A stretch of 36,511 nt of DNA from a virus, in the IMG/VR virus record IMGVR_UViG_3300048023_000466, positions 1 to 36,511 of that record. One strand, 5' to 3'. How positions within the stretch are numbered: the first letter of the stretch is position 1; every line of letters starts with the position of its first letter. A program made the translations under genes and the position numbers. The notes under the pieces are model-generated. The model saw nothing but the letters and a program-made list of their open reading frames with translations, was not told the origin of the DNA and did no database searches. Shown in pieces: positions 18,883-35,381 of this stretch.

Positions 18883-19788
18883 TTATGCGTCCAGAGCGAT
18901 CGACATGAACTCTGCTCGGCGTGTGGGGTCGTCGGCGATGATTCCGCGGAGCGAGTTTGTGGTCATGGTGGCTCCGGGCTTGCCGACACCGCGGCAGCTC
19001 ATGCACTGGTGGTGGGCGTGGATGACGACACCGACGCCTGCTGGCTCGAGGTGGTGGTGCAGGTCGGTCGCAATGTCTTCGGTGAGTCGTTCTTGCACTT
19101 GGAGGCGCTTGGCGTGTGCGTCGACGAGGCGTGCCAGTTTCGACAGGCCGACGACTTTGAGGCCGGGGACGTAGCCGACTGTGGCGGTCCCGGTGAACGG
19201 GAGCATGTGGTGCTCGCAGAGCGACGTGAAGGGAATGTCGGAGAGGACGACGGTGCCGGACACTTCGCCCACGTCGAACTGCACTCCGAGGATCGTTTCA
19301 ATGTCGGTGTGGTAGCCGACGGTCATCTCGGACATGGCCTTGATGACGCGCTTCGGGGTGTCGATTAGACCTTCGCGGGTTGGGTCTTCGCCGATGTGTT
19401 GCAGGATTCGCACGACGGCGTCTGTCGGGTCGCCCGCGTCTCGTTCCCACGGGAACGCGAGCCATGTGTCGACCAGCGTTGCGTCGGGGGCGATATCGGC
19501 TGGCGAGTAGGGCTTGCGGTACAGGGTGTCGCGGTCGTTGGCTTCATAGGCCGAGAGTGTGCGGCCCGTGTCGACAAGGTCGTCTACGACGAGTGTGCGG
19601 TCGTCGATCTCGTCTGGTCGGTCAACGAGGTGCCACCCGGCTCGTTCTGAGGCCATGACGGCGATCGGTGCGCCACCTTGCGGGACGCCGTAGACCTTCT
19701 CGATGTGCTGCGCGTCGGCCCATCTTGCGACGAGGCGGTCGACCTCGAGCGAGATATCGCTCCACGTCAGGTGTTCGACTTCGCTCAT
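18883..19788 (-). CDS. folE: Phosphoribosyltransferase-GTP cyclohydrolase I fusion (301 aa)
   Basis: A two-domain enzyme. Residues about 1-115 form a type-I phosphoribosyltransferase with the PRPP loop LVVDDLVDTGRT (66-77) and a VYGVPQGGAPIAVM strand-loop. Residues about 120-301 are a GTP cyclohydrolase I with all hallmark segments: TSLCEHHMLPFTG, GLSKLARLVDAHAKRLQVQE and HHQCMSCRGV. Zinc ligands Cys191, His194 and Cys262 are present. FolE converts GTP to dihydroneopterin triphosphate, the first step towards queuosine-type bases. The gene follows QueE by one base and is the last of the modification operon. The fused transferase may recycle a purine base, possibly guanine released by DpdA; this is inference. 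Confidence 0.93.
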   Translation of the reverse strand: MSEVEHLTWSDISLEVDRLVARWADAQHIEKVYGVPQGGAPIAVMASERAGWHLVDRPDEIDDRTLVVDDLVDTGRTLSAYEANDRDTLYRKPYSPADIAPDATLVDTWLAFPWERDAGDPTDAVVRILQHIGEDPTREGLIDTPKRVIKAMSEMTVGYHTDIETILGVQFDVGEVSGTVVLSDIPFTSLCEHHMLPFTGTATVGYVPGLKVVGLSKLARLVDAHAKRLQVQERLTEDIATDLHHHLEPAGVGVVIHAHHQCMSCRGVGKPGATMTTNSLRGIIADDPTRRAEFMSIALDA

Positions 19789-19789
19789 G

Positions 19790-20506
19790 TCATCGTCCTC
19801 TTTCGTCGTTCCATATGCGGACGTGCAGTCTGTCGGAGTAGTGGTAGCCGGTTTCTAGCGCATACTGAGCGACGCGGGGTGCATTGACGTTCAGTTCGAG
19901 CTTCGTTCTGCCTTCGGGCATGAGCCAGACCCGGTTGTGTGGCCAGTCGTAGCGTTCGACGAACTGCTCTACCGCTGTCATGTCTTCGTCGGTTGCGATG
20001 ACGAACTTGGCGTCGGCGCGTTCGTGCCATGCTTCCTCGGCGAACGCAGCGTAGGTCTCGTCCCAGTTCTCTTTGACGGTGATGCCTGATCCGGGCAGCT
20101 TCGGCGACACGGAGTAGGTCACGTCGGTCGATGCTCGACTGAGCGGCGGTCGGGTGCCGTTCGTTTCGATGTGAACGTGCGCGTCGACTTGCTCGGCCAG
20201 TTCGGTCACCGCTCTGGCTTGCAGCAGCGGTTCGCCGCCTGAGATGACAAGCTGGTGGGTCGTCGGGTCGAAGCCGAGGTCGACGAGCGCGAGGATGAGC
20301 GCTTCGATGTTGACGGTCGTTTGTTCTTTCGCGCGGTCGTAGGCGACGCCGTTCTTGCCGGTCCAGTCCCACGTGTAGGGCGTGTCGCACCACGAACAGT
20401 CGAGGTTGCAGCCGGAGGTGCGGATGAAGACGCATGGTGTGCCGGTGTAGCGGCCTTCGCCTTGCAGGGTCGGCCCGAACACTTCACTGATTCGCAAGTT
20501 GGTCAT
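19790..20506 (-). CDS. queE: 7-carboxy-7-deazaguanine synthase (238 aa)
   Basis: A radical-SAM enzyme that makes 7-carboxy-7-deazaguanine from 6-carboxytetrahydropterin. The cluster motif SGCNLDCSWC gives Cys33, Cys37 and Cys40 (Cys-x3-Cys-x2-Cys). The N-terminal LRISEVFGPTLQGEG and the SAM-contact segment LVISGGEPLLQ (residues 87-96) are the standard QueE signatures, and the length fits the family. It overlaps QueD by four bases. There is no sign of a QueC domain, so the pathway encoded here stops at the carboxy compound. Confidence 0.95.
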   Translation of the reverse strand: MTNLRISEVFGPTLQGEGRYTGTPCVFIRTSGCNLDCSWCDTPYTWDWTGKNGVAYDRAKEQTTVNIEALILALVDLGFDPTTHQLVISGGEPLLQARAVTELAEQVDAHVHIETNGTRPPLSRASTDVTYSVSPKLPGSGITVKENWDETYAAFAEEAWHERADAKFVIATDEDMTAVEQFVERYDWPHNRVWLMPEGRTKLELNVNAPRVAQYALETGYHYSDRLHVRIWNDERGR

Positions 20507-20931
20507 GTGGCTGTCCAGATGGCCGCGTTGCGTTCATTCTCCCAACACTCGATGCGGATGACCTCGGCTTCTTCGGCGATCGAAGGTTGTAGGTCTTGCA
20601 CAAGGTCCCTCACCCACAACGTCATGCCTTCCATCGTCGGGTCCATGACGCGCAGGTCGATCGCGCCCGCGGCGTGCAGTTCCCGGAAGCGGTCAAGCTC
20701 GGGGTCGTCTGGCGAGATGAGGCAGGTGTGGTCGAACTGCCGTTCGAGCGTCGCTTTCAGTTCTTTGAGGCCTCCGAAGTCGACGACCCATCCGAGGTAG
20801 TCGCGCGGGCCGGTCCATTCGATCTCGACCCATCGGTCGTAGCCGTGCAGGTAGCGGCAGTGTGAGGTTGCGGCCCACTGTCGGTGACAGCATGGGAAGC
20901 CGCCGAGGCGCTTGCGGACGTTCGTGCTCAT
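20503..20931 (-). CDS. queD: QueD-like 6-carboxytetrahydropterin synthase (142 aa)
   Basis: A T-fold enzyme of the QueD / 6-pyruvoyl-tetrahydropterin synthase family. The start is the ATG at 20931, overlapping the upstream stop (ATGA). Residues: first His at CCHRQW (His16), then HCRYLHGYD with Cys25 and His29, but Tyr31 where QueD normally has the third zinc His (HGH). Other family features are WVVDFGGLK (48-56), FDHTCL near 66-71, PTMEG (98-102) with Glu101, and a C-terminal IECWENERNAAIW. The HGY form is, from memory, common in phage QueD-like proteins, and the enzyme may still bind metal with another ligand. It acts between FolE and QueE. Confidence 0.88.
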   Translation of the reverse strand: MSTNVRKRLGGFPCCHRQWAATSHCRYLHGYDRWVEIEWTGPRDYLGWVVDFGGLKELKATLERQFDHTCLISPDDPELDRFRELHAAGAIDLRVMDPTMEGMTLWVRDLVQDLQPSIAEEAEVIRIECWENERNAAIWTAT

Positions 20932-21290
20932 GAGTCCTCCGAGTGGAACGTGAGGGTCGCGCCGACCTCGTCGTCCTCGGTGACCTCGACCGCGACCCAC
21001 GGCGTTGTCGGGTAGGCGTCGAATACGGCGGCGGCGACTTCGCCGGCGAGGTGCTCGCAGGATGAGCGGCCGTGCTCTCGCCGGGTCAGAGGCGGTGAGT
21101 CGTTGACGACGTCGAGCAGGTCGTGGAACTCGATGTCGCGGTCGTCGTGGTTGACCGGTGCGGTGACCCGGTAGTGGAACAGGTGCCGGTGCCGGTCGGA
21201 AAGGTACGCGCGGGTGTCTTTCGCTTCGGGCCAACGATGGAAGCCGATGCTCGCGGTCGAGACGGTGATTCGGCGGTCGGTGACGTTCAC
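20928..21290 (-). CDS. Small T-fold-like protein with His triad (120 aa)
   Basis: A 120-residue protein between DpdA and QueD, starting with GTG at 21290 and overlapping both neighbours by four bases. It appears related to the QueD fold: IGFHRWPEA (His18), DRHRHLFHYRV (His34 and His36, like the HGH zinc pair), DDRDIEFHDL and SSCEHLAGEV (Glu79, like the PTxE segment of QueD). The catalytic Cys of QueD is absent. It therefore keeps the metal triad that the neighbouring QueD has partly lost. Its reaction is unknown; it could be a second pterin-binding subunit or partner of QueD. The family relation is inferred by eye. Confidence 0.6.
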   Translation of the reverse strand: MNVTDRRITVSTASIGFHRWPEAKDTRAYLSDRHRHLFHYRVTAPVNHDDRDIEFHDLLDVVNDSPPLTRREHGRSSCEHLAGEVAAAVFDAYPTTPWVAVEVTEDDEVGATLTFHSEDS

Positions 21291-22207
21291 TGCTCTTGGC
21301 CTTTCATGTAGGTCGGGGTCCCAAAGTAGTCGCTGCGTGTGTCGTGGTAGTGCTTCATGCCGCGCGTCATAAGCGTCATCTCGGTCATCGCGAAGCGGGC
21401 GACATGCTCACGAACCTCGAACGGTGCCGAGAACGGGGTGTGCCACTTCTCGGGAATCTTCCAACCGCGTCGGCCTGCCGCACCGACCTTCATCGACGAG
21501 GGCCAGTTCCACATCGCAAGCCACGACGACGAGTCGGCAGAGTCCCACGGCAGGCCCATCTGCATCTCGTTCGGGGTGATCCCGAGGAAGTGGATGAACA
21601 GGTCCGGGTAGTCGGCGTGACGTTCGTAGGCGGTGGCGAACAATCGGCGGCGAGTGTGCGCGTCGGCTTGAACGAGGTTGCCGAAACACATCCGGTCGTA
21701 GCCTTGCGCCAGTTCGTCGAAGTAGTCCCAACCGTCGTTGAGCGGATGGTAGACCGGGATCGGATTCAGTCCTTCGGCCTCGAGCGTTGCCCGGACGCGC
21801 CGCTTGTTCTCCCGGCCGCCCTGATCTAGTTCGTTGTATCCCCAGAGGCGGTCGCCGAACTCGGAACAGATCTCGCAGTAGACGTCAAACAGCCAGTTGA
21901 AGTTGTCGATCTCCTCCGGTGCGAGCGCGAGCGCGTCGTCCATCGAAACGTCGTGCGCCCGCTTGTGCTGGTTCGTCAGGAAGAAGATGCCGGAGTCGAG
22001 GAACGTGTCGACGCCCGCGTCGAGCGACTCCATGAACTTCTCCCACGGGCGACCCTTTCGACCAAGAGGTCGACCGACCGCAGCGAACTCGTTGACGGCG
22101 AACAGCGTCGGGTATTCCGGGACCGTTGGCTTCTGATCGTTGCCGCCACCTGCGAAGAAGTACTTACACCGGTCGTCCTTGTCCCACTTGCCGTCGGTCT
22201 TCTTCAT
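21287..22207 (-). CDS. dpdA: DpdA-like DNA 7-deazaguanine transglycosylase (306 aa)
   Basis: A relative of tRNA-guanine transglycosylase of the DpdA type, which swaps guanine in DNA for a 7-deazaguanine base. The start is set at the ATG at 22207 (four-base overlap with the ParB-like gene). TGT-like features are FLDSG at residues 69-73 (Asp71, general acid/base position), HFLGI (206-210), and GLPWDSADSSSWL (218-230), where Asp222 or Asp225 would be the nucleophile. It is shorter than tRNA TGT and lacks the Cys3-His zinc site, as is common in phage DpdA. The FolE-QueD-QueE neighbours make DNA as the target much more likely than tRNA. Confidence 0.88.
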   Translation of the reverse strand: MKKTDGKWDKDDRCKYFFAGGGNDQKPTVPEYPTLFAVNEFAAVGRPLGRKGRPWEKFMESLDAGVDTFLDSGIFFLTNQHKRAHDVSMDDALALAPEEIDNFNWLFDVYCEICSEFGDRLWGYNELDQGGRENKRRVRATLEAEGLNPIPVYHPLNDGWDYFDELAQGYDRMCFGNLVQADAHTRRRLFATAYERHADYPDLFIHFLGITPNEMQMGLPWDSADSSSWLAMWNWPSSMKVGAAGRRGWKIPEKWHTPFSAPFEVREHVARFAMTEMTLMTRGMKHYHDTRSDYFGTPTYMKGQEQ

Positions 22208-22953
22208 GCGTTGATCTCGCGCGCTTCTGAGATGCCTGCCGCGTTCCACTTCGACAGGACGTGCCCGGCGAGGTACCGGTCGGCCTGCACCATGACGAGC
22301 GACTGACCTTGCATCGCTGCGGTGATTGCCACATACGGGGCCGGATATGGGACGAAGATGCGGTCGTTGGCGAGGTGCTCATACCAGAGCGACCACTCGG
22401 TCATCACGTCTGCGACAACGAGGACGTGCGGGCCGAGCAGCCATGTGCTCCCCTTCTCCGGGATGAAGTCCGGTTCGGCGATGCTTACGTCTTCAAGACC
22501 TTCGAGCGTGCGGGTCTCGTTGATCGCGTCCTCGCCCAACCCTGGCATGTCGAGGTCTTGCAGCAGTAGGTCAAGGTCGTCGCCGTCCCAACCGGTGCCG
22601 AGCAGACCTTCCTCCGACGTTGCGATGTTGCCGAGTAGCTCGGCGAGGAAAGCGTCGTCGTAGCTTGCAAGGTCCGAGGTGCGGTTGTCGGCGATCAAGA
22701 TGCGGCGGGCGGTGTCGTCGTCTACGTCGACCCAGTGGACCGGCACGCGGTCGAGGCCGCAATGCATCGCAGCTTGTAACCGGTGGTTTCCGGCGAGCAC
22801 GTTCCCGGTGGACACCTGCGCGACGAGCGTGCCGTACCAGCCGTTCGCCTCGATCGACTGAATGATCGCGCCGATGTCACCCTGCCGCGGGTTGTCGGGG
22901 TGGACGTTCAACGCCGTCAGCGGCGTCTTTCGGATGCCTGGCTTCTGTTCCAT
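22204..22953 (-). CDS. ParB-like nuclease-domain protein (249 aa), partner of DpdA
   Basis: A 249-residue protein with an N-terminal ParB/sulfiredoxin-type domain: VHPDNPRQGD (residues 17-26), NGWYGTLVAQVSTGNVLAGN and GNHRLQAAMHCG (55-66), VDVDDDTARRILIADNRT. It is not a partition ParB, as no ParA or helix-turn-helix is present. ParB-like proteins next to DpdA occur in bacterial dpd clusters (DpdB) and in mycobacteriophages with this modification, where they are thought to help DpdA act on DNA. It is the first gene of the operon. An in-frame GTG lies three bases upstream. C-terminal residues about 130-249 are specific to this protein and unassigned. Confidence 0.85.
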   Translation of the reverse strand: MEQKPGIRKTPLTALNVHPDNPRQGDIGAIIQSIEANGWYGTLVAQVSTGNVLAGNHRLQAAMHCGLDRVPVHWVDVDDDTARRILIADNRTSDLASYDDAFLAELLGNIATSEEGLLGTGWDGDDLDLLLQDLDMPGLGEDAINETRTLEGLEDVSIAEPDFIPEKGSTWLLGPHVLVVADVMTEWSLWYEHLANDRIFVPYPAPYVAITAAMQGQSLVMVQADRYLAGHVLSKWNAAGISEAREINA

Positions 22954-22986
22954 CACTCGTCAAGCTAACAGCGGCATGTACCGTTC

Positions 22987-33626: not shown

Positions 33627-33803
33627 CTAGTCGTTGTCGTCTTCGGGCGAAAGGGCGAGCGAGACCATGTGCATGAAGAACGCGACCGCGGTGACGGTCA
33701 GCGCCAGCTTGAACGTCTGCGATCCGGGCGGCAGCGTGATCAGAATGTAAGCGGACCCGGCGAGGGTCCATGCAAGGATGAAGACTTCGCGCAAGTATCT
33801 CAT
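33627..33803 (-). CDS. Small two-helix membrane protein, possible second holin (58 aa)
   Basis: A short gene starting at the ATG at 33803, overlapping the stop of the exported Thr-rich protein (ATGA), and ending at TAG 33629-33627, just before the r1t-type holin. Residues 6-25 (EVFILAWTLAGSAYILITL) and 33-52 (LALTVTAVAFFMHMVSLA) are hydrophobic, and the tail is acidic (SPEDDND). This resembles small two-helix holin or antiholin proteins. Two adjacent membrane proteins before an endolysin are common in actinophages. Confidence 0.75.
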   Translation of the reverse strand: MRYLREVFILAWTLAGSAYILITLPPGSQTFKLALTVTAVAFFMHMVSLALSPEDDND

Positions 33804-35245
33804 CGGCGGTTCCTTCGACGTGTTGGGCCAGACGGTCCGGCAGGTGCGGACGGGCCAGCAGTTGGAGCGGGTGGCGGTGTCGGGCGCGGCATGGCGAGTG
33901 CCGCTGTCGACGCTGCCGTGACAGCGATAACTGTCCGGCGCTCGCCGTTCGTAATAGTGGAGTCGGTTCGGGTGAAGTCGTCCAGAGCACCCGAGAATGT
34001 TTCGTCAGCGACGGCGTCCTCGAACACCTCTTTCACCTCATCGGGCGCGTCATCGAGCACTTCTGCGATCGCTGCAAGCTGCTCGTCTGCAACGTCATCG
34101 AACGACTCCTGCTCGAGCATCGCTTCTACGTCGGCGACCGCTATGTCCTCCGGCTCGACTGCGATCACTTCAACGATCGCCTCGGCCAGTTCCTCGTCGG
34201 CGATTGCCGCTACGACCGCGAGCGCTTCAACGACCAGCGGCGGCGGCTCGGTTGTTGTCGTCGGCGGCGGTTCAGTCGTTGTCGTCGACGGCGGCTCGGT
34301 TGTGGTGGTCGGCGCGACGGTTGTGGTCGTAGAGGTAGTAGACGTTGTCGTCGTGGTCGAGGTGGTCGTCGGCGGCAGGGTCGTCACCGGGACCGGGACC
34401 GTCGTCGTCGAGGTAGTAGGGGTTGGGATTGCCGAGGTCGTCGGTGGGACCGTCGTCACCACCGGCAACGTAGTCGTAGTCGTGGTAGTCGTCGGCGGCG
34501 CTGTCGTCGTTGAGGTCGTCGACGATGTTGAGGTGGACGTAGTAGGCGGCAGCGTCGTCGTCGTCGGTGCCTGCGTTGTCGTGGTCGTAGTTGATGGCGG
34601 TGCCTCGGTGGTCGTTGTGGTCGTCGTCGGGGCGGCGGTCGTTGTGGTCGAGGTCGTTGTGGCCGGCGCGGCGGTAGTCGTGGTCGGCGGCGCTTCTGTT
34701 GTAGTCGTCGGAGCAGCAGTCGTCGAGGTGGTGGTCGTAGATGTAGTGGTCGAGGTCGTACTCGAGGTCGTGGTTGTTGTTGTGGTGGTCGGTGGCGACC
34801 AGCCCTCATCCGAGAACGTCACCGCCATCGACCCGGTCGGCACCGTGTAGTTGCCGCCCGACTCCCGTTGGAACGTCGTGAACCGCAGAACGTAATCGCC
34901 CGCCTCGGGTGTGAGGTGCAGCTTCGCCGAATAGCAGTCGCCCGTGTCGTTGTGATTGCCGTCGTCGTTTGACGCCACGGTCGCCCCGGTGGAGTCAAAC
35001 AAGATCAGCCACGGGTCGACCTGAGTGGCGAAGTCGAGCGGGCAGTCGACCCCGGACGATGCGATGACGTGCAGCAGCGTTTCACCGTCGAGCGATAGGT
35101 CCCAGTCGACGTATGGGTCGTCGGCCGACACCGACACGTTCCACCCGTCGGCGTAGACCGGCGCGACCGGGCCGACGAGGGCGATCAGATAGGACGCCGC
35201 GAGTGCGGCTCTACTCGTCCGGCGGGTCCAGGTCCGCAGCCGCAT
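33800..35245 (-). CDS. Exported protein with Thr/Pro linker (481 aa)
   Basis: The start is set at the ATG at 35245, giving a signal peptide (MRLRTWTRRTSRAALAASYL, then hydrophobic residues and a VYADG cleavage region near 32). Residues about 35-140 form a beta-rich domain resembling bacterial pre-peptidase C-type domains (WLILFDSTGATVASNDDGNH, EAGDYVLRFTTF). Residues about 150-330 are almost only Thr, Pro, Ala and Ser. Residues about 335-430 are a highly acidic helical part (ADEELAEAIVEVIAVEPEDI). The C-terminus is Pro/Ala-rich and basic. A surface or tail-adhesion role, or a secreted factor, is possible. The linker style suggests the gene came from, or mimics, the host. Confidence 0.72.
   Translation of the reverse strand: MRLRTWTRRTSRAALAASYLIALVGPVAPVYADGWNVSVSADDPYVDWDLSLDGETLLHVIASSGVDCPLDFATQVDPWLILFDSTGATVASNDDGNHNDTGDCYSAKLHLTPEAGDYVLRFTTFQRESGGNYTVPTGSMAVTFSDEGWSPPTTTTTTTTSSTTSTTTSTTTTSTTAAPTTTTEAPPTTTTAAPATTTSTTTTAAPTTTTTTTEAPPSTTTTTTQAPTTTTLPPTTSTSTSSTTSTTTAPPTTTTTTTTLPVVTTVPPTTSAIPTPTTSTTTVPVPVTTLPPTTTSTTTTTSTTSTTTTVAPTTTTEPPSTTTTEPPPTTTTEPPPLVVEALAVVAAIADEELAEAIVEVIAVEPEDIAVADVEAMLEQESFDDVADEQLAAIAEVLDDAPDEVKEVFEDAVADETFSGALDDFTRTDSTITNGERRTVIAVTAASTAALAMPRPTPPPAPTAGPSAPAGPSGPTRRRNRR
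34240..34795. repeat. Low-complexity Thr-codon tract
   Basis: On the plus strand this reads as runs of GTCGTCGTGGT-like triplets; on the minus strand it encodes ACN-ACN Thr runs broken by Pro, Ala and Glu. It is a coding microsatellite in which length can vary by slippage in threes, changing linker length without breaking the frame. Confidence 0.85.
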
Positions 35246-35381
35246 CGTCGCCGCTCTCGGCTTCGGCGACGCGCGCACTCAGGATCTCGTTCTGCGCCGT
35301 GAGGACGGCGATCTCGAACTGCTCGGGGAATCGTGTCTGGAGGATCGCGAGGACCCGGTCGGTGATGTTCGTCTCGGTCAT
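35211..35381 (-). CDS. Small coiled-coil protein after the tail fibre (56 aa)
   Basis: It starts at the ATG at 35381, in a four-base overlap with the fibre stop (35378). The product opens MTETNITDRVLAILQTRFPE, continues with a heptad-like helix (FEIAVLTAQNEILSARVAEA) and ends with an acidic tail (DLDPPDE). Small coiled-coil genes directly after a fibre often encode fibre assembly helpers. It overlaps the exported protein start by 35 bases. Confidence 0.65.
   Translation of the reverse strand: MTETNITDRVLAILQTRFPEQFEIAVLTAQNEILSARVAEAESGDDAAADLDPPDE

Follow-up and report, generated by a model that had tools for sequence, protein, structure and literature searches.

When a phage exchanges guanine in its own DNA for a modified base, what becomes of the guanine that is expelled? 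Phages with a 7-deazaguanine cassette would make the base from GTP, each new base costing one GTP, and the transglycosylase DpdA would then swap guanine in phage DNA for it, freeing one guanine per exchange. The literature that we searched on phage 7-deazaguanine DNA follows the incoming base and does not take up what happens to the guanine that leaves. The question is raised here by a virus record from IMG/VR, 36,511 bases long and possibly a fragment, which is taken over its whole length and hereafter named the window. A first-pass annotation had noted in it a gene fusing a phosphoribosyltransferase (PRT) to GTP cyclohydrolase I (FolE). This observation is confirmed below, and we examine what such a fusion might do.

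A PRT-FolE fusion at the end of a 7-deazaguanine cassette

The fusion gene (18883..19788, minus strand) is a single unbroken open reading frame, running from an ATG at 19788 to a stop at 18883 and encoding 301 amino acids. A ribosome-binding-like stretch, GAAAGAGGA, was read by eye 5' of this ATG. Pfam, PHROG and NCBIfam all place domains in the protein. The N-terminal Gpt/XGPRT-like PRT domain covers residues 1 to about 117 (19438..19788, minus strand; PHROG, profile, AlphaFold2 and fold matches), and the C-terminal FolE domain residues 123-301 (18886..19422, minus strand; Pfam, NCBIfam and residue conservation). With the window protein and its IMG/VR relatives as sole input, AlphaFold2 modelled both the whole protein (pLDDT 95.2) and the N-terminal domain alone (pLDDT 96.2) with high confidence.

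The FolE half is complete, as the first-pass annotation had proposed. Residues 123-297 match Pfam PF01227 (E 3.9e-65), the NCBIfam folE model TIGR00063 scores 196.8 bits, above its curated cut-off of 181.6, and C191, H194, H260 and C262, at the expected zinc and catalytic positions, are invariant among 59 fusions. The FolE of phage 9g complements E. coli folE mutants (PMC6884629).

DpdA, FolE, QueD and QueE are all present in the window. In transcription order, and all on the minus strand, a ParB-like gene is followed by dpdA, a QueD paralog, queD, queE and lastly the fusion. The dpdA-like DNA guanine transglycosylase gene (21287..22207) was recognized by PHROG 887 (8.2e-17) and a local DpdA profile (1e-64); ATG 22207 is its preferred start, the frame being open to 22249 and beyond. 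The QueD-paralogous T-fold protein (20928..21290) was identified by PHROG and profile comparison, queD, for 6-carboxytetrahydropterin synthase (20503..20931), by PF01242 (5.8e-20) and PHROG 2389 (2.9e-32), and queE, for the radical SAM 7-carboxy-7-deazaguanine synthase (19790..20506), by PHROG 2076 (7e-59) and by TIGR03365 at 1.2e-30, under its cut-off. From dpdA through queE, successive genes overlap by 4 bases, and the queE stop lies 1 base before the ATG of the fusion. PF06508 found no QueC in the record, which may be a fragment, so that the gene could lie outside it.

In the product of the ParB-like gene (22204-22956, minus strand), the ParB-like domain is N-terminal, and the part after it is similar to the beginning of a phage DNA methyltransferase (phrog_498, 2e-30); this product seems too short for a whole methyltransferase. 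Further away, 33800-35278 (minus strand) encodes a long Thr-rich low-complexity protein of unusual composition, with TTTTT runs; the opposite strand also has a long open frame there.

The QueD paralog belongs to phrog_17812, which aligned with QueD in hhalign (95.6%, E 1e-8) and with the archaeal PTPS-like protein PH0634 (2e-4). It keeps three His, and the QueD catalytic Cys is apparently missing. The same family is found in 16 other loci of our collection (L004, L010, L015, L025, L027, L032, L042, L057, L066, L072, L073, L076, L078, L083, L084 and L086). Across loci, 79 had QueC only, 24 had phrog_17812 only, and none had both. Perhaps phrog_17812 acts on CDG instead of QueC, in which case the base inserted by phages with this protein may not be preQ0.

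The N-terminal domain resembles a shortened Gpt

The N-terminal domain matches PHROG 8995, 'phosphoribosyl transferase' (1.6e-9). Pfam PF00156 scores it at 20.4 bits, under the cut-off of 26.3, probably the reason for which annotation pipelines miss it, and the NCBIfam xanthine PRT model NF006613 gave the window protein 27.2 bits for a cut-off of 138. When its profile was compared with solved structures, it matched the Pyrococcus horikoshii purine PRTase 1vdm (3e-20), enterobacterial XGPRT (about 1e-16) and Sulfolobus solfataricus HGXPRT. The PRPP loop announced by the first-pass annotation was located at residues 66-77 (LVVDDLVDTGRT), and these profile matches to solved purine PRTases indicate that the motif is not there by chance. 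The modelled domain superimposes on E. coli XGPRT (4jls_A) over 116 of 119 residues (VIA-align Z 16.0, rmsd 2.8; Foldseek 3.1e-9), and structural neighbours ranked as XGPRT (Z 16.0), HGXPRT (14.6) and PyrR (11).

The active site could be followed residue by residue. The window domain has a pyrophosphate loop 37-QGG-39, a PRPP loop 69-DDLVDTGRT-77, K92 and the segment 109-WLAFPWE-115, and alignment equates D69, D70, D73, K92 and W109 with Gpt D88, D89, D92, K115 and W134. In 6-oxopurine PRTases, the purine is contacted at N7 by the residue equivalent to Gpt D92 and at O6 by that equivalent to K115, with W134 stacked on it; conserved residues of this active site also bind PRPP. Since searches with the PRPP motif favour sequences in which it is conserved, conservation was re-measured on 39 distinct fusions for which similarity to FolE was the sole criterion of retrieval, so that they had not been selected for PRT motifs. 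D88, D89 and W134 were found in 39/39 of them, D92 in 38/39 and K115 in 35/39, and the PRPP-binding motif DDxxDxGxT (window residues 69-77) is kept in 38-39/39. Between close pairs of fusions, dN/dS of the PRT half was 0.06-0.28, and this half is therefore under purifying selection; it evolves faster than the FolE half. Sequence and modelled fold together identify the domain as related to E. coli Gpt (XGPRT), but shortened. The guanine PRT initially proposed is upheld as to type: sequence, fold and active-site residues are those of a 6-oxopurine (guanine/xanthine) PRT.

These residues also bear on the substrate. Judging from the gene neighbourhood, the PRT might act on CDG, preQ0 or 7-deazaguanine, and yield a nucleotide for incorporation by the polymerase or stop the loss of the base. 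Yet 7-deazapurines lack N7, whereas the Asp that contacts it is kept in 38 of the 39 fusions, and nearly all fusions come with DpdA, which needs the free base. We regard this reading as very improbable.

Two departures from Gpt are of importance, one of them a deletion. Flexible loop II, of about 20 residues in Gpt, is deleted between window residues ~52 and 65. The spacing from the GG of the pyrophosphate loop to the DD of the PRPP loop is 29 residues in the window versus 48 in Gpt, and 20-37 in nearly all fusions with cleanly placed motifs versus 48-65 in cellular Gpt; likewise, 1vdm and XGPRT carry an insert of ~20-25 residues relative to the N-domain profile. Loop II, which normally closes the PRT active site, is thus shortened or deleted across the fusions. 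In addition, Arg37 of the Gpt pyrophosphate loop is Gln (Q37) in the window, Arg being found in 17/39 fusions.

Such changes might suit binding without turnover, and the domain could then be a sensor rather than an enzyme, binding PRPP, guanine or a guanine nucleotide and tuning FolE allosterically to nucleotide supply. Its structural matches include PyrR (Z 11) and a ppGpp-bound PRT (5vog, Z 12.5), and PyrR and related PRT-fold regulators bind such ligands with a regulatory role. Mammalian FolE is itself regulated by a separate protein, in GFRP complexes, and phages CAjan and 9g manage without the PRT domain. However, a sensor would not account well for the conservation of the base-recognition Lys and Trp and of the N7-contacting Asp, which goes beyond the PRPP loop alone. 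Separate PRT genes in 7-deazaguanine cassettes, some of them with an intact loop II (L010, L096 and L097), also speak more for an enzyme than for a regulator acting in cis. On balance a sensor seems unlikely to us, although it is the most probable of the alternatives.

The fusion accompanies DpdA in phages

We gathered about 90 distinct PRT-FolE fusions from IMG/VR and cultured phages. The cultured ones include Vibrio phages 1.207.B and VpKK5, Pseudomonas phage NP1 (Nipunavirus), Stenotrophomonas phage ply2008005c and Sphingomonas phage MMDA13, and each of these five has QueC, QueD, QueE and DpdA genes beside its fusion. In GenBank, the cultured-phage fusions are labelled GTP cyclohydrolase only. 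With the N-terminal domain of the window as sole query, tblastn gave no match in cultured phages; since matches are obtained with the NP1 domain or with the whole protein, this blank reflects a limit of sensitivity.

The first-pass annotation had suggested checking whether the fusion is always found with dpdA, and the outcome is nearly as predicted. Flanks of more than 4.5 kb on either side were available for 41 distinct fused loci, which are interrelated and cannot be counted as independent trials. Of these, 39 had DpdA in the fetched stretch, and 40 when counting L039, where it lies elsewhere in the record; the remaining one, L215, is a 15.5-kb fragment. The Pfam TGT model (PF01702) was dropped as a DpdA detector, as it misses phage DpdA even where the PHROG model matches. 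In a tree of PRT domains, which rests on few columns and has weak inner support, fused domains group away from cellular Gpt, with no more than two changes.

In other loci the PRT is encoded by a gene of its own. Such loci hold folE as well in 17/25 cases, most of these being accompanied by 7-deazaguanine genes. Cultured examples of a separate PRT in a 7-deazaguanine cassette are Synechococcus phage BUCT-ZZ01 (L097), Cellulophaga phage phi19:2 (L096) and Flavobacterium phage immuto_3-5A (L098). Loop II is intact in some separate PRTs, namely in L010, phi19:2 and BUCT-ZZ01. The PRT is thus not merely an appendage of FolE.

The cassettes of phi19:2, BUCT-ZZ01 and immuto_3-5A gave no match to the DpdA profiles used; in the latter phage, immuto35A_64 is annotated as DpdA all the same. 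By sequence, the DpdA of these three phages would be a subfamily too divergent for our models.

These distributions allow a broader salvage function to be weighed. The PRT might recover guanine or xanthine from any source, such as degraded host nucleic acid, to feed FolE, and its link with DpdA would be indirect, such phages needing a high FolE flux. A few separate PRTs (L007 and L081) indeed come from records that gave no DpdA match, and a fusion from a Peribacteria genome, described below, adjoins folate genes, with no dpdA detected, so that the protein can serve folate synthesis. Nevertheless, viral fusions almost always sit with DpdA, QueD and QueE, and four loci whose FolE is accompanied by no other 7-deazaguanine gene in the fetched stretch (L226, L246, L249 and L255) are without the PRT. 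General salvage therefore appears improbable to us.

Occurrences in cellular genomes

That the fusion might be a general bacterial gene was rejected: of 80 PRT loci from bacterial or archaeal genomes, 3 were fused. Two of these three sit in full que/dpdA cassettes, and are probably viral contigs in metagenome-assembled genomes. The search of 192 genomes of the Peribacteria phylum yielded one fusion and, otherwise, separate FolEs or PRTs. This fusion (L099, 7911-8882, from a Candidatus Peribacteria genome) lies between a SecD-like gene and genes for DHFR and thymidylate synthase (ThyA), in a genome that gave no dpdA match. The fusion can therefore also accompany folate genes, and this copy is possibly a viral gene recruited for folate synthesis.

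A possible route for guanine recycling

The reading that we favour, with moderate confidence, is that PRT-FolE is bifunctional and returns the guanine released by DpdA, as GMP, to the GTP pool that feeds FolE. The Gpt-like N-terminal domain would join freed guanine to PRPP to give GMP, host kinases would convert GMP to GTP, and from this GTP the fused FolE would begin the synthesis of another 7-deazaguanine. PRT catalysis, guanine as the physiological substrate and coupling to DpdA are what we infer from domain type and gene association.

The recycling proposed by the first-pass annotation therefore stands in part. It agrees with the 6-oxopurine PRT type and with the link to dpdA, and sits less easily with the absent loop II, Q37, the domain scores under the Pfam and NCBIfam cut-offs, the Peribacteria exception and the fact that some phages do without the PRT. 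No PRT of this family is present anywhere in CAjan, 9g, Dp-1, nt-1 or Knedl. As modified bases replace 32% of G in CAjan and up to 27% in 9g (PMC6884629), the PRT is not required for exchange on this scale, and would be an optional addition. A phage-borne guanylate kinase, which might close the loop, was looked for in 32 PRT-bearing records and none was found, so that the loop would need host kinases, as had been assumed at first.

Besides saving GTP, recycling may help the exchange itself. We counted 23,659 G-C pairs in the 36.5 kb record. If 30% of these were exchanged and the burst were 100, both being assumed values, some 0.7 million guanines would be freed, i.e. about 1 mM in a cell of 1 fL. 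The solubility of guanine is in the tens of µM, and this amount exceeds it, so that a sink would serve the exchange as well as the GTP economy: since guanine dissolves poorly, taking it away would drive the reversible exchange in the forward direction. In its full form, this closed cycle would have a small Gpt lacking the lid, joined to the enzyme with which the replacement-base pathway begins, turn expelled guanine into GTP and so drive the exchange; it is a tentative proposal, which we hold to be slightly less than an even prospect. If true, it would represent a form of salvage peculiar to the modification of viral DNA, and a PRT that works although loop II is missing.

Comparison with known systems

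In the literature searched, neither the fusion nor a salvage of guanine by phages that exchange bases is described, although a prior mention is possible; PMC6884629 does not mention a PRT (0 occurrences of 'phosphoribosyl'). The system is a known one, and what is new here is a domain architecture within it; the sequences were already in public records. The PRT, joined to FolE in many phages that exchange bases and encoded separately in other cassettes, is a candidate answer to the fate of the outgoing guanine. The fusion also offers a natural PRT devoid of its catalytic lid, and phage genes labelled 'GTP cyclohydrolase' may merit a check for a second domain.

Compared with the phage 7-deazaguanine cassettes of Hutinet et al. 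2019 (PMC6884629), the window has the same DpdA, QueD, QueE and FolE in a coupled gene run, but it is without QueC, has a QueD paralog in its place, and its FolE is fused to a PRT. The FolE itself is the same complete domain as in phages (e.g. 9g) and cells, with the zinc and catalytic residues and a score above curated cut-offs, and differs in being preceded by the PRT domain. As for the latter, E. coli XGPRT (Gpt), S. solfataricus HGXPRT (4z1o) and 1vdm share its whole-domain fold (Z 14-16), the PRPP motif, the N7-contacting Asp, the O6 Lys, the stacking Trp and the W..xPWE/D end, whereas the window domain is about 20 residues shorter, loop II being gone, has R37 replaced, is fused to FolE and is 23-28% identical to them. 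Finally, the PHROG 8995 PRTs of phi19:2, immuto_3-5A and BUCT-ZZ01 belong to the same PRT family and are likewise found in phages with queE and folE, but they are separate genes, and those of phi19:2 and BUCT-ZZ01 retain loop II.
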